Positions 42,836 to 51,310 of a stretch of 64,000 nt of DNA are shown in pieces. Origin of the DNA: Streptomyces roseirectus. Its GTDB lineage: Bacteria > Actinomycetota > Actinomycetes > Streptomycetales > Streptomycetaceae. The DNA lies in contig NZ_CP060828.1 of the NCBI RefSeq assembly GCF_014489635.1, forward strand, positions 2,418,001 through 2,482,000. Reading direction: 5' to 3'. A program made the position numbers and the translations under genes. The notes below the pieces were generated by a model. The model saw only the letters and a program-made list of their open reading frames with translations. It ran no database searches and was not told the DNA's origin. Position 1 is the first letter of the stretch, and each line of letters starts with the position of its first letter.

Positions 42836-44005
42836 TCAGCTCACGACCGGTACCGCCACCGGTGCCTCCGGGCCCACGTACCGGGCCGCCGGGCGGATGA
42901 TCTTCGGGTCCTGGGACTGTTCCAGGATGTTGGCGCTCCATCCGACGACGCGGGCAGCGGCGAAGGTCGGGGTGAACATCTCGCGGGGGAGGCCACAGAG
43001 TTCCATCACGACGCCGGCGTAGAACTCGACGTTGGTGTGGAGTTCGCGGCCGGGTTTGAGTTCGGCCAGGATCGCCTCCACCTGGCGTTCCACCTCGACG
43101 GCGAAGGCGACACGCGGCCCGCCGAAGCGCTGGGCGATCTCACGGAGCATCCGGGAGCGAGGGTCCTCGGTGCGGTAGACGGCATGACCGAACCCCATGA
43201 TCCGGTCGCCGGCCAGTACATGTTCCCGGATCCATGGATCAATGCGTTCGGGGGTGCCGATCGCGTCCAGGGTGTCGAGGGCCCGGCTGGGCGCCCCGCC
43301 GTGCAGAGGCCCGGAGAGCGCGCCGACGGCGCCGACGAGGCAGGCGGCGACGTCCGCACCTGTGGATGCGATGACGCGCGCGGTGAATGTTGACGCGTTG
43401 AAGCCGTGGTCAATGGTGGAGATCAAGTATTGCTCGATCGCCCGCGCCTTGTGTTGATCAGGTTCAGCGCCAGTCAACATATACAGATAGTTCGCCGCGT
43501 AGGACAGATCCGCCCGGGGCTCGACCGGTTCGAGCCCCTTCCCCAGCCGGTACAGCGCGGTGAGCAGCGTCGGCACCGCCGCGGCCGCCACGAGCGTGTC
43601 CGCACGCCGCCGGCCGGCGTCCGTGTCGTACACCGGCCGGAACCCCTCGACCGCGCCCAGCAGCGACAGCGCCGTCCGCATCCCCGCGAGCGGCCCGGCC
43701 CCGCCCACGCTCGACGCGGCGACGGCGGGCAGGGCGGCCGCGATCTGGGCGGGCAGCGCACGCAGGGCCGCCGTCTCGGCCGCGAAGGCGGACGCCCGTG
43801 CGGGATCGGGGAGTTCGCCGTGGACGAGGAGGTACCAGACGTCCTCGAAGGAGCGGGTCTCGGCGAGTTCGACGGCGGAGTACTGGCGGTAGTGGTAGAA
43901 GCCCTCAAGGCCGCGCACGTCACCGACCCGGGTGTCGGTGACGACGACGCCGGCGAGTCCGCGCGGGACGTCGACGAAGGACGCGGTGGACCTGTTGACA
44001 GACAT
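42836..44005 (-). CDS. citrate synthase (citrate synthase 2 / 2-methylcitrate synthase type)
   Basis: 389 residues. It condenses acetyl-CoA (or propionyl-CoA) with oxaloacetate. Catalytic and binding motifs: STIDHGFNAST, GPLHGGAP, MGFGHAVYRTEDPR (His) and ELHTNVEFYAGVVM (Asp is replaced locally by the EFY context typical of this short class). The C-terminus has KIIRPAARYVGP. The short length and absence of the N-terminal extension place it in the small citrate synthase group. The ATG has AAGGAGGG. It is divergent from a citrate synthase with an N-terminal DNA-binding domain. Confidence 0.9.
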   Translation of the reverse strand: MSVNRSTASFVDVPRGLAGVVVTDTRVGDVRGLEGFYHYRQYSAVELAETRSFEDVWYLLVHGELPDPARASAFAAETAALRALPAQIAAALPAVAASSVGGAGPLAGMRTALSLLGAVEGFRPVYDTDAGRRRADTLVAAAAVPTLLTALYRLGKGLEPVEPRADLSYAANYLYMLTGAEPDQHKARAIEQYLISTIDHGFNASTFTARVIASTGADVAACLVGAVGALSGPLHGGAPSRALDTLDAIGTPERIDPWIREHVLAGDRIMGFGHAVYRTEDPRSRMLREIAQRFGGPRVAFAVEVERQVEAILAELKPGRELHTNVEFYAGVVMELCGLPREMFTPTFAAARVVGWSANILEQSQDPKIIRPAARYVGPEAPVAVPVVS

Positions 44006-44040
44006 GGATTCCCTCCTTGAACTTGATTCGACTGTCCATC

Positions 44041-44078
44041 ATTGACTAAATTGCTGTCAATATTGATCCAATCAATAT
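44041..44078. promoter_or_regulatory. overlapping AT-rich palindromes in divergent citrate-synthase promoter
   Basis: ATTGAC-N9-GTCAAT at 44041-44061 is followed by ATATTGAT-CCA-ATCAATAT at 44060-44078. The half-site ATTGAY occurs four times in 38 bp, in a stretch far more A/T-rich than its flanks. The whole intergenic gap is 99 bp, so a protein bound here would control both citrate synthases. Confidence 0.8.
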
Positions 44079-44104
44079 GTACTCATCCGGATACGGTGAC
44101 CCCC

Positions 44105-45394
44105 ATGCGCGATCAGGAACCCGCCCCCGGCCACCCCGAACGGCGTCTGACCACCAAGGAGGCCGCCGAACTGCTGGGCGTGAAGCCCGAGACGGTGTAC
44201 GCGTACGTCAGCCGGGGCCAGCTCAGCAGCAGACGCGTGCCCGGCGGCCGCAGCAGCACCTTCGACGCCGCCGAGGTCGAGGCACTGGCGCGCCGCAACA
44301 GGCGCGAGAGCGCCGGGACTCCGGGCACGAGCGGCGAACCGGCCGTCCGCACGCGCCTCACGTACATCGACGGCGACCGGTACTACTTCCGGGGCGTCGA
44401 CGCGGTCGACCTGGCCGTCGCGCACTCCTACGAGGCGGTCGCGGAGTGGCTGTGGACCGGAGAACTGCGCGCGGGAGCCACGTTCACCGCACCCGAGGCG
44501 TCCCTGAAGGCCGCCCGCAGAGCGGCCCGCGCGCTGCCCGAGCACACCGGCCCCGCCGACCGCCTGCGCGCCGCGGCCGTGGCGGCGGCCGTGGCGGACC
44601 CCCTGCGCTTCGACCTGTCCGAGGACGCCGTCGTCGGCACCGGACGGACCCTGATCCCGACCCTGGTCGCCGCCCTCCCGCCGAAGCACCCCGGCCACCG
44701 GGACGAAGGACCCCTGGCCCGGCGTCTGTGGGCACGGCTGACGACGCGCACGCCCGACGAGGCGTCCTTGAACGTCCTGGACACGGCGCTCGGCCTGCTG
44801 GCCGACCACGACCTCGCCGCCTCGACGCTGGCCGTCCGGGTCGCCGCGTCGGCCCGCGCACACGCCTACGCGGCCGTCTCGGCGGGCCTGGGCGTCGTCG
44901 AGGGTCCGCTGCACGGCGCGGCCAGCGGACTCGCGCACCGGCTGCTGGACGAGGTCCTGGAGCGAGGCGACGCGGCGCCGGTGATCGCCGAGGAGTTGCG
45001 GGCGGGCCGGCGGATCCCGGGCCTCGGCCACCGGCTGTACCCGGGCGAGGATCCACGCGCGCGTGCCCTGTTCGCCCTCCTGGAGGAGATCCCCGACGCG
45101 CACCCGGCACGCGCGGCGGCGCGGGACGTCGTGGCCACCACCGCCCGCCACACACCCCTGCACGCCAACGTCGACCTCGCCCTCGCCGTCCTGACCCTGT
45201 CCTTCGGCATGCAGCCGGCGGCCGGCGAGGCGATCTTCGCCGTGGCCCGTACGGCGGGCTGGATCGCGCACGCGCTGGAGGAGTACGGCGAACGCCCGCT
45301 GCGGATGCGCCCCAGCGGCCTCTACGTGGGCCCCAAGCCGCCCCGACCGCTCCCCGCGGACCACGCACGCGCACCAGGCGCGCACTCTGCGTGA
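44105..45394 (+). CDS. citrate synthase-like protein with N-terminal helix-turn-helix (excisionase/MerR-type)
   Basis: 429 residues. An N-terminal DNA-binding module (about 10-65) reads LTTKEAAELLGVKPETVYAYVSRGQ, then a GGRSSTFDAAEVEALARR wing, as in MerR/excisionase HTH_17. A citrate synthase domain (about 80-425) follows, with GPLHGAASGLAH, IPGLGHRLYPGEDPRA and LHANVDLALAVLTLSFG. Several catalytic positions are altered: the first His motif (SxxDH) reads as AVRVAASARAHAYAAV, and Asp is in NVDLAL. It may be a citrate/acyl-CoA sensor that regulates the divergent enzyme. ATG at 44105 keeps the HTH complete. Confidence 0.85.
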   Translation: MRDQEPAPGHPERRLTTKEAAELLGVKPETVYAYVSRGQLSSRRVPGGRSSTFDAAEVEALARRNRRESAGTPGTSGEPAVRTRLTYIDGDRYYFRGVDAVDLAVAHSYEAVAEWLWTGELRAGATFTAPEASLKAARRAARALPEHTGPADRLRAAAVAAAVADPLRFDLSEDAVVGTGRTLIPTLVAALPPKHPGHRDEGPLARRLWARLTTRTPDEASLNVLDTALGLLADHDLAASTLAVRVAASARAHAYAAVSAGLGVVEGPLHGAASGLAHRLLDEVLERGDAAPVIAEELRAGRRIPGLGHRLYPGEDPRARALFALLEEIPDAHPARAAARDVVATTARHTPLHANVDLALAVLTLSFGMQPAAGEAIFAVARTAGWIAHALEEYGERPLRMRPSGLYVGPKPPRPLPADHARAPGAHSA

Positions 45395-49090: not shown

Positions 49091-50683
49091 CTACACGGCT
49101 CCCGCTCCTGTCAGCGAACGCACCTCCGTCTCCGCGTGCCGGGCCTCGTCGGGCTCCTCGGACGAGGTGACCGTGCCGAACCAGCCCGCGAGGAAGCCCA
49201 TCGGGATCGAGATGATGCCCGGGTTCTGGAGCGGGAAGAGCTGGAAGTCGACGCCGGGGATCAGCGACTCGGGGCTGCCCGAGACGACCGGCGACAGCAC
49301 GACGAGCAGCAGCGCCGGGATCAGCCCGCCGTAGACCGCCCACACCGCGCCCCGGGTGGTGAAGTTGCGCCAGAACAGCGAGTAGAGCAGCACCGGCAGG
49401 TTCGCCGACGCGGCGACGGCGAAGGCGAGGCCGACCAGGAACGCGACGTTGAGTTCGCGGGCCAGGATGCCGAGCGCGATCGCGACGATGCCGATGCCGA
49501 CGGCCGCGACCCGTGCGACCCCGACCTCGCTGCGCTGCTTGGCGTGCTTGCGGCGCAGCGACGCGTACAGGTCGTGGGCCACGGACGCCGAGGAGGCGAG
49601 CGTGATGCCGGCGACCACCGCGAGGATGGTGGCGAAGGCGACGGCGGCGACGACCGCGAACAGCACCGTGCCGCCCATGGAGTCGGCGCCGCCGCCGAGG
49701 TCGAGGGCGAGCAGCGGGACCGCCGTGTTGCCGGCCGCGTTGGACTGGCGCACGGCGTCCGGCCCGACGATCGCGGCGGCGCCGAAGCCCAGCACGATCG
49801 TCATCAGGTAGAAGCTGCCGATCAGGCCGATCGACCAGACCACCGAGCGGCGGGCCGCCCGCGCGGTCGGCACGGTGTAGAAGCGGGACAGGATGTGCGG
49901 CAGGCCGGCCGTGCCCAGCACGAGGGCGAGACCGAGGCTGATGAAGTCGAAGCGCGAGGTCCAGTCCGCGCCGTACTTCAGGCCGGGCGCCAGGAAGTCG
50001 ATGCCGTGCCCGCTGCGTTCGGCCGCGGTGAGCAGCAGCCGGTCGAAGTCGCCGTGGAAGCGGACGAGGACGAGGACGGTCAGCGCGACCGTGCCGCCGA
50101 GCAGCAGGACCGCCTTGACGATCTGGATCCAGGTGGTGGCGCGCATGCCTCCCAGCGACACGTAGATGACCATCAGCGCGCCGACCCCGATGACCGTCCA
50201 CACCTGGGCCGCCGCCCCGCTGCGGCCCAGCAGGAGCGCGACCAGACTGCCCGCGCCGACCATCTGCGCGACCAGGTAGAAGATGGACACGATGACGGAG
50301 GAGGCGCCCGCCGCGATGCGCACCGGCCGCTCGCTCATCCGCGCCGCGACGACGTCCGCGAGCGTGAACCGCCCGCAGTTGCGCACGAGTTCGGCGATGA
50401 GGAGCAGCACGACCAGCCAGGCGACGAGGAAGCCGACCGAGTACAGCAGGCCGTCGTAGCCGAACAGGGCGATCAGGCCGGAGATGCCGAGGAAGGAAGC
50501 GGCCGACATGTAGTCGCCCGCGATGGCGAAGCCGTTCTCCATCGGGGAGAACAGGCGCCCGCCCGCGTAGAACTCCTCGGCCGAGCCGTGCCGGTTGCGG
50601 CTGACCCAGGTCGTGATGCCCAGTGTGACGGCGATGAACACGCTGAACAGCACGAGGGCCAGGGTCTGATGGTTACCGCTCAC
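49091..50683 (-). CDS. sodium:solute symporter (ActP/MctC-type carboxylate transporter)
   Basis: 530 residues with 13 hydrophobic segments. Family blocks: ISGLIALFGYDGLLYSVGFL, FLVAQMVGAGSLVALLLG, GGMRATTWIQIVKAVLLL and LGLALVLGTAGLPHILSRFYTV, typical of SSSF transporters for acetate and other short carboxylates. GTG at 50683 overlaps the DUF485 stop (GTGA), matching the YjcH-ActP pair. It moves the carboxylate with Na+ or H+. It ends near the CitAB-like genes and follows a NarL-type two-component operon on the same strand. Confidence 0.9.
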   Translation of the reverse strand: MSGNHQTLALVLFSVFIAVTLGITTWVSRNRHGSAEEFYAGGRLFSPMENGFAIAGDYMSAASFLGISGLIALFGYDGLLYSVGFLVAWLVVLLLIAELVRNCGRFTLADVVAARMSERPVRIAAGASSVIVSIFYLVAQMVGAGSLVALLLGRSGAAAQVWTVIGVGALMVIYVSLGGMRATTWIQIVKAVLLLGGTVALTVLVLVRFHGDFDRLLLTAAERSGHGIDFLAPGLKYGADWTSRFDFISLGLALVLGTAGLPHILSRFYTVPTARAARRSVVWSIGLIGSFYLMTIVLGFGAAAIVGPDAVRQSNAAGNTAVPLLALDLGGGADSMGGTVLFAVVAAVAFATILAVVAGITLASSASVAHDLYASLRRKHAKQRSEVGVARVAAVGIGIVAIALGILARELNVAFLVGLAFAVAASANLPVLLYSLFWRNFTTRGAVWAVYGGLIPALLLVVLSPVVSGSPESLIPGVDFQLFPLQNPGIISIPMGFLAGWFGTVTSSEEPDEARHAETEVRSLTGAGAV

Positions 50684-51231
50684 GACGTACCGCCCTTCAC
50701 GCCGCGCGTCAGCTCCTGGGTGTCCCAGCGCAGGTCGAGGGCGGCCCGGTCCCTGCGCAGCCTGGCGTGCCTGGCGTAGGCCCAGGCCAGCACGAAGGTG
50801 GTGAGGAACTGGCCGAGACCGGCGACCAGTGCCACGTTGACGGCGCCCACGACGGGACGGGCCATGAACCCGGGCGCGGTGGTCGCGGCGACGACGTACG
50901 CCACGTACCAGAGGAAGAAGCCGATGCCCGCCGGGACCACGAACCGCCGGTAGCGGCTGCGCACTTCCTGGAAGGCGGCGCTGCGCTGGACGGCGAGGTA
51001 GACCTCCGCCATGGCGTCGCGGGCCGGTTCCTGGCGGGGAGCGGGGACCGCCGGCGCGGGTGCGCCCGGTGGTTCCGTTCCGGGCCAGTCCGGAGCCAGG
51101 GCGCCGAACCAAGGATCGTCATGACGCACGCCCGCCGGCTCTTCGGGGACCGGGGGTCGCACCTCTCGGTGCTCGCGTGCTCTCTCGGGACCGCCCCCGC
51201 CACTGCGGGCACGGTCGTTGCTCAACTGCAT
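50680..51231 (-). CDS. DUF485 membrane protein, symporter partner
   Basis: 183 residues. A Pro/Ala-rich cytosolic N-terminus (about 1-75) precedes the DUF485 domain with VYLAVQRSAAFQEVRSRYRRF, and two TM segments (about 98-120 and 133-155, IGFFLWYVAYVVAATT and VNVALVAGLGQFLTTFVLAWAY). DUF485 proteins are encoded with acetate permeases. ATG at 51231 is chosen over the TTG 6 nt upstream; neither has a good SD. The long N-terminal extension is typical of actinobacteria. Confidence 0.85.
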   Translation of the reverse strand: MQLSNDRARSGGGGPERAREHREVRPPVPEEPAGVRHDDPWFGALAPDWPGTEPPGAPAPAVPAPRQEPARDAMAEVYLAVQRSAAFQEVRSRYRRFVVPAGIGFFLWYVAYVVAATTAPGFMARPVVGAVNVALVAGLGQFLTTFVLAWAYARHARLRRDRAALDLRWDTQELTRGVKGGTS

Positions 51232-51310
51232 ACCCAATGATGGACAGAACGGGAAGATCCCCTACTCTCTTTCCCGCATTCTTCACCCCATCAAGCGACA
51301 ATGGGCCGAC

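Follow-up and report, generated by a model that had tools for sequence, protein, structure and literature searches.

The locus described here raises the question of what a citrate synthase carrying a DNA-binding domain does back to back with a second citrate synthase. It lies in a stretch of 64,000 nucleotides from Streptomyces roseirectus (NCBI RefSeq assembly GCF_014489635.1, contig NZ_CP060828.1, positions 2,418,001 to 2,482,000 of the forward strand), which is called the window below and whose positions are used throughout. The two genes, CS1 and HTCS, diverge from an intergenic gap of 99 bp (44006-44104). Both open reading frames were recovered as the initial annotation had described them, with Pfam HTH_17/MerR and Citrate_synt matches in the fused protein:

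42836..44005, minus strand: CS1, citrate synthase / 2-methylcitrate synthase family, 389 amino acids, active-site Asp replaced by Glu (NVEFY)
44105..45394, plus strand: HTCS, winged helix-turn-helix (HTH) and citrate synthase domain, 429 amino acids, start ATG at 44105 and not the upstream TTG
44147..44302, plus strand: HTH_17/MerR-like winged HTH of HTCS, residues 15-66 (Pfam)
44327..45313, plus strand: Citrate_synt domain of HTCS, residues 75-403 (Pfam)

The answer favored here is that HTCS is probably a dedicated, ligand-sensing local transcription factor of the divergent citrate-forming enzyme, its sensor being a former citrate synthase. The domain make-up, an operator in the gap, the conservation of this operator and its linkage to the gene pair, all obtained by computation, carry this answer.

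CS1 corresponded to Citrate_synt along its whole length, and both proteins passed the PF00285 cut-off of 27 (CS1 368.6 bits, HTCS 212.6 bits). In addition, CS1 passed the NCBIfam subfamily model NF009005 (346.7 against 332) and failed the others listed, such as TIGR01800 (344 against 421.3), and HTCS stayed under the cut-off of every NCBIfam citrate synthase model listed (best 158.1 against 332). The winged HTH profiles passed by HTCS were HTH_17 (41.8 against 27), MerR (29.8 against 28.2) and excise (34.1 against 28.8). The BldC model NF033787 was not reached (29 bits against 77), and the Pfam matches were HTH_17, MerR, MerR_1 and Citrate_synt only, without a LysR HTH or substrate domain. By sequence, the nearest solved winged HTHs were BldC chains (6ama/6amk), although the match was weak (E 0.009). 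An AlphaFold model made from a 26-sequence alignment began with the HTH, a wing of two strands and a helix; residues 70-82 formed a linker of low confidence ahead of the synthase domain. Its 50 best Foldseek matches were citrate and methylcitrate synthases, with TM-scores of about 0.6. HTCS and CS1 fell in separate clades of a tree that carried a long-branch warning. The HTH was the better conserved part of HTCS: its mean identity to the consensus of 120 close orthologues was 0.916, against 0.872 for the enzyme domain (means over 112 sequences, copies with a missing or displaced CS1 being kept separate), and the HTH residues T30, Y32, Y34, S36, R37 and G38 were present in 170/171 orthologues. 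Seven copies with CS1 missing or decayed retained the HTH (0.84-0.92), and in L018 its identity reached 0.98.

The letters of the two palindromes reported for the gap, ATTGAC-N9-GTCAAT (44041-44061) and ATATTGAT-CCA-ATCAATAT (44060-44078), were confirmed, and they fared differently as operators. The second was strongly conserved beyond Streptomyces in the form GTCAAYRTTGAY-N3-6-RTCAAY, which reaches further to the left. The first was rejected as an operator: its left half, ATTGAC, was only weakly conserved outside the genus, and its right half belongs to the core and to the presumed CS1 -35. The elements of the gap were then as follows:

44056..44078, no strand: operator core GTCAATATTGATCCAATCAATAT with the consensus GTCAAYRTTGAY-N3-6-RTCAAYRT, on comparative grounds the putative binding site of HTCS, with the core form GTCAAYRTTGAY-N3-RTCAAY at 44056-44076
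44041..44047, no strand: extra half-site ATTGACT, strongly conserved in Streptomyces and weakly elsewhere
44023..44039, no strand: Streptomyces-conserved block TTGATTCGACTGTCCAT, which holds the presumed CS1 -10 (GACAGT)
44055..44060, minus strand: presumed CS1 -35 TTGACA, overlapping the operator core and 18 nt from GACAGT at 44036-44031, read from the sequence
44092..44097, plus strand: presumed HTCS -10 TACGGT in GGATACGGTG, 7 nt before the ATG, likewise presumed from its letters

A consensus scan of 43900-44200 for sigma-70-type promoters found none. Since the presumed HTCS -10 stands only 7 nt before the ATG, its position suggests a leaderless or near-leaderless HTCS mRNA. When the degenerate core was searched with up to three mismatches, four matches were obtained in the window against a mean of 0.15 in shuffles; one exact match and one overlapping it were at the intergenic site, and the two elsewhere had three mismatches each. 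From 135 Streptomyces gaps the consensus TTGATTcGACTGTCCATGnTTGACTnaatnncTGTCAATATTGATTgAATCAAT was derived, whereas 22 gaps from more distant loci retained chiefly GTCAACGTTGAT and the tcAacgt after it; this consensus was built solely from gaps holding the anchor CAA[CT][AGT]TTGA. By eye, gap lengths clustered at about 98 and 110 bp, roughly one DNA turn apart, and the longer HTCS/CS1 gaps often carried an extra TCAATG half-site.

The linkage of this site to the pair was examined in 121 Streptomyces genomes, of which 77 were scored with HTCS (E <= 1e-60), 75 with CS1 (E <= 1e-150) and 73 with both; the genes were adjacent and divergent in 70 of these 73. The exact operator GTCAAYRTTGAYNNNRTCAAY gave 68 matches, one in each of 68 genomes, and its reversed pattern gave none in the same genomes. 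All 68 adjoined at least one of the two genes, 66 lying upstream of CS1 and as many upstream of HTCS, and no exact operator was found in the 42 of the 121 genomes in which, at these thresholds, neither gene was present. Of the two genomes scored with CS1 only, G601 does have HTCS, cut by a contig end, together with the operator, and G524, which had no HTCS match, lacked the operator and retained ACTGTCCATG. Related loci numbered 505; in the top 80, CS1 was on the opposite strand to HTCS in 75, L018 among them, and the named relatives nearest to the window locus were those of S. acidiscabies (90% protein identity) and S. niveiscabiei (89%).

A wider count gave the same picture. After collapsing identical upstream sequences, 204 loci were reduced to 186, five of them without the HTCS N-terminus. 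Of the 167 distinct gaps between HTCS and CS1, 163 held the palindrome TTGA[TC]N2-6[AG]TCAA, where dinucleotide shuffling predicts 1.5. Loci with only CS1 fragments beside HTCS were counted with CS1 in two cases (L017, L105) and without it in one (L092). The rest comprised four loci with another partner, of an HMGL-like family described below (palindrome in 4/4), and ten with neither partner within 700 bp (palindrome in 3/10). In the window's own genome, TGTCAATATTGATNNAATCAA had no match beyond this locus with up to three mismatches. A wider regulon was also considered and rejected: a looser pattern searched in 14 genomes with up to two mismatches gave off-locus matches that all had two mismatches and were scattered; the window's own genome had one of these, and a genome lacking HTCS had two. 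The linkage as a whole is what a dedicated local regulator would give, and it would be hard to obtain otherwise.

Other families of actinomycetes also had the site between HTCS and CS1, with HTCS identities of 43-62%. Of 394 genomes sampled across the class, 55 had a CS1 orthologue (E <= 1e-120), and HTCS was divergent beside it in 52 of them (coordinates compared by eye, with L227 and L203 used for two broken contigs). The three exceptions were two rearranged genomes (G012, G032) and one with both genes at contig ends (G352).

In five genomes (L131, L193, L194, L202, L225), HTCS and its operator faced a non-homologous, HMGL-like synthase instead of CS1. The L194 partner shared 78-83% identity with those of L131, L193 and L202, and in these four loci the operator lay between the two genes. 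This protein matched PF00682 and HCS_D2 and remained under all NCBIfam cut-offs listed, its best profile being the nifV homocitrate synthase (229.8 of 462.9 bits); its solved relatives were homocitrate and isopropylmalate synthases. We suspect it to be a Re-type citrate synthase. It was found (E <= 1e-90) in 4/394 genomes, in three of which it adjoined HTCS, and in the fourth (L225) HTCS began directly across the operator before the contig ended. None of these four class-sample genomes had a CS1 match (E <= 1e-120), and the fifth genome (G005, locus L131) had a CS1 orthologue elsewhere (L237), without the operator. The HTCS proteins of three of these loci clustered with 100/99 support in the tree, again under a long-branch warning.

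Loci in which the pair was split or incomplete allowed the operator to be followed with each gene. In L018, where CS1 was 2.4 kb off (2363 bp), the whole block travelled with CS1, and HTCS kept only GGATACGGTG before its ATG. In L228 a CS1 copy displaced elsewhere in the genome carried the block, and in the rearranged L241 the full site was found at CS1 and a separate palindrome at HTCS. Conversely, the operator was gone from seven HTCS loci without an adjacent CS1 (L020, L052, L071, L109, L135, L229, L245); the absence of CS1 refers to a stretch of roughly 13 kb in the first three and to the whole genome in the last four. The GGATACGGTG box of HTCS stayed in loci that had lost the operator, and a box like it was seen in these seven, the HTH being conserved in all five that were compared. 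Ten genomes of a related family in the same order had a CS1 orthologue (67-69% identity), HTCS matches in this family were on other contigs, and the palindrome was absent within 600 bp upstream of CS1 in 7/7 of those inspected. L243, a CS1 orthologue without a neighboring HTCS, likewise had no operator upstream. CS1 genes of just 60-63% identity but facing HTCS (L195-L198) retained the palindrome. CS1 itself appeared to be a recurrent breakpoint, insertions or rearrangements splitting the pair or cutting CS1 near codon 37 or 85-99 (L017, L018, L105, L241, L246; G012, G032, G512).

The layout of an enzyme turned regulator, proposed in the initial annotation, received strong comparative support from the linkage of operator and pair across families, from the movement of the operator with CS1, from its absence upstream of the inspected CS1 genes without an HTCS neighbor and from its retention with the HMGL-like partner; the argument from an altered catalytic His in HTCS was wrong. 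The PLHGA, GLGHRLY and ANVD motifs of the window protein were unchanged, with all three catalytic residues intact:

44912-44914, plus strand: codon of catalytic His270 of HTCS
45029-45031, plus strand: codon of catalytic His309 of HTCS
45173-45175, plus strand: codon of catalytic Asp357 of HTCS

Active sites were compared in 171 HTCS (151 + 20 sequences) and 140 CS1 proteins. The CS1 set was drawn from loci up to L177, short of the most distant ones; the HTCS set left out L199-L210, among them the weakest HTCS-like copies, L208 and L210, and its 151-sequence part excluded L130, L133 and loci under 40% identity. His235, His270, Arg318, Asp357 and Arg382 were kept in 171/171 HTCS, His309 in 167/171 and Arg402 in 169/171, the two exceptions at Arg402 resembling a broken reading or a contig end. 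By motif, we take the HTCS positions to correspond to H238, H274, R329, D375, R401, H320 and R421 of pig citrate synthase, oxaloacetate/citrate ligands and catalytic residues. Four residues after His309, position 313 was Pro in the window protein and in 99/171 orthologues, Arg in 22/171 and mixed in the rest; every CS1 (140/140) had Arg at the equivalent position, and the three other PF00285 proteins of the window's genome had Lys or Arg there; this genome has five PF00285 genes, one of them weak. This is presumably the CoA-binding position after GH..Y, equivalent to pig Arg324. The Asn of HxxNxST (position 238) was Ala in 171/171 HTCS. By alignment, the carboxylate site of HTCS appears intact and its CoA side drifted. 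His309 was replaced in four orthologues, all of genus g68 (L183 Ala, L185 Met, L187 Met, L188 Ile), which retained the operator and a divergent CS1. The reading of HTCS as an enzyme turned regulator is better supported by these changes: the basic residue of the CoA site is lost in most orthologues, N238A is universal and His309 is lost in four. CS1 had been taken as the true enzyme of the two; the less canonical active site is in fact that of CS1, in which the catalytic Asp was Glu (NVE, not NVD) in 140/140. The same replacement was found in L003, another citrate synthase-like protein of the window's genome, and the best solved match of CS1, B. subtilis citrate synthase 1 (2c6x), also has NVE.

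Citrate synthases are dimers and move from an open to a closed form on ligand binding. For DNA binding, dimer geometry, ligand and sign, we infer the following model. An HTCS dimer would bind the symmetric operator between the HTCS and CS1 promoters through its two MerR/BldC-like winged HTHs, and the conserved carboxylate site of its citrate synthase domain would take up oxaloacetate or citrate; sensing of an acyl-CoA is less favored. The open-to-closed movement would alter the spacing of the HTHs and hence the affinity for DNA. The output would be dedicated and local: HTCS would set how strongly the facing citrate-forming enzyme, and probably HTCS itself, is transcribed. Repression relieved by the substrate is somewhat preferred over activation, because the core overlaps the presumed CS1 -35 and sits just upstream of the presumed HTCS -10.

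Several findings, including those taken up with the first two alternatives below, weigh against a dedicated regulator. Six of the 70 adjacent Streptomyces pairs had no exact operator match, and covariation of the operator arms, tested by shuffling, was modest (outer positions 1 and 2 symmetric in 112/159 and 97/159 against 101 and 79 when shuffled, the third in 110 against 110). Streptomyces lacking CS1 and the operator still kept HTCS with a conserved HTH, which means either a second role of HTCS or a recent loss of CS1, and one genome without a CS1 match (G143; L082/L231) retained the palindrome. The AlphaFold model was no more than fair, its pLDDT averaging 74.7 and dropping under 50 in parts of the active-site region, and active-site geometry was not taken from it, the confidence in that region being too low.

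The most serious alternative, less probable than the dedicated regulator but with a substantial share of the weight, is that HTCS is a bifunctional trigger enzyme, an active citrate or methylcitrate synthase with DNA binding as a second function, as in PutA. With His270 and Asp357 universal and His309 nearly so, most HTCS proteins may still catalyze; H235, R318 and R382 are equally invariant, and HTCS was retained where CS1 was missing. Against catalysis stand the rarity of Arg and the prevalence of Pro at residue 313, the invariable N238A, and the four orthologues that lost His309 and kept both HTH and operator.

It is unlikely that the conserved block is the site of other regulators, such as MtrA, GlnR or a two-component system of the SCO5829/5828 type, with HTCS not acting there. 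In S. coelicolor, SCO5831 (citA3) and SCO5832 (citA4) were named putative citrate synthases; MtrA bound a probe of their intergenic region, and at late time points an mtrA mutant expressed both genes more strongly (PMC12323332). The neighboring SCO5829/5828 two-component system may repress SCO5831 in phosphate limitation (PMC9739823), and according to a review GlnR controls citA and citA4 in Saccharopolyspora. The conserved block may therefore serve other regulators in part. The published MtrA site, TTGACTTAACTGTCCA, located at -92 and -16 from the translation starts (PMC12323332), was matched by the first 16 bases of TTGATTCGACTGTCCAT at 13/16 (counted by eye). It corresponds to window positions 44023-44038, in the left block, and adjoins the GTCAAYRTTGAY core without lying within it. 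Moreover, the site of a global regulator would hardly be single-copy per genome, absent from the inspected CS1 promoters without an HTCS neighbor and kept with an unrelated HMGL-like partner.

Still less likely is an ordinary pair of divergent citrate synthase paralogues forming mixed oligomers, with the HTH as a relic or oligomerization module: both proteins belong to PF00285, and the literature classes SCO5831, in places together with SCO5832, as a citrate synthase or a citrate synthase-like protein, but the HTH is the better conserved part of HTCS, the two proteins form separate clades (with the warning given above), and HTCS also partners a protein of another family.

The correspondence with S. 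coelicolor rests on gene order. In the window, HTCS is followed by a sucrase/ferredoxin-like gene, a sensor kinase and a response regulator, and in S. coelicolor SCO5831 is followed by SCO5830 (sucrase/ferredoxin-like) and the two-component system SCO5829/SCO5828 (PMC9739823). Because these orders match, HTCS is likely the orthologue of SCO5831 and CS1 that of SCO5832, the latter also by its distance to the published MtrA site. The excerpts on this S. coelicolor pair describe both proteins as enzymes. SCO5831 was treated as a citrate synthase or citrate synthase-like protein in PMC9739823, PMC8981147 and PMC7324645, two of which found it more abundant in phosphate proficiency; the excerpts of these three papers and of PMC12323332 mention no HTH or regulatory role for it. 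A search of the open literature for citrate synthase and HTH, a weak test limited to titles and abstract starts with excerpts of two papers, returned nothing evidently about such a regulator.

Some known systems resemble the dedicated regulator proposed here. In B. subtilis, CitR is a LysR-type protein encoded divergently from the minor citrate synthase gene citA, which it represses. In both CitR-citA and HTCS/CS1, a minor citrate synthase gene would face its own dedicated regulator; the difference is that the sensor of HTCS would itself be a citrate synthase fold, joined to a MerR/BldC-type HTH. Trigger enzymes and enzyme-derived regulators include PutA, NadR and BirA, in which, as in HTCS, a metabolic enzyme fold is fused to a DNA-binding domain and acts on its own pathway; unlike them, regulator and enzyme paralogue are separate neighboring genes in HTCS/CS1. 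To our knowledge, no such regulator based on citrate synthase is known. BldC shares with HTCS a small MerR-like winged HTH (the sequence match being weak). It has no effector domain and occupies direct repeats AATTXXXX(C) in a head-to-tail arrangement (PMC5859096; Schumacher et al., 2018). In contrast, HTCS has a large enzyme-derived domain and, as proposed, an inverted-repeat operator.

Judged from the sequences, the original observation stands and extends past this genome. We give roughly even chances to the broader proposal that HTCS founds a family of transcription factors sensing the oxaloacetate/citrate pool, with a single operator wired to whichever citrate-forming enzyme faces it: CS1, of the Si-type fold, in most actinomycete loci seen, and the HMGL-type, Re-citrate synthase-like enzyme in others. 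If this were true, an enzyme of central carbon metabolism would have become a gene switch watching the entry of the tricarboxylic acid cycle in antibiotic-producing actinomycetes, and a regulator would have kept its operator while the enzyme across it was swapped for an unrelated one. It would also help to explain the several citrate synthase-like genes per Streptomyces and would provide a natural oxaloacetate/citrate sensor.

Around the pair, ten flanking open reading frames from eight loci, picked by codon-position GC, had no common family. Since they share none, the HTCS/CS1 pair would seem to be a self-contained unit, and the neighboring genes were dropped as a clue to the pathway. In the window, 49091-51237 (minus strand) encodes a DUF485 protein and then an apparent acetate permease-type symporter (family assigned by eye), near two two-component systems. 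Lastly, L208 and L210 contain divergent HTCS-like copies (37-38% identity) with other neighbors (in L208 an FAD-type oxidoreductase, by eye) and operator-like repeats; they are possibly paralogous regulators with other targets.

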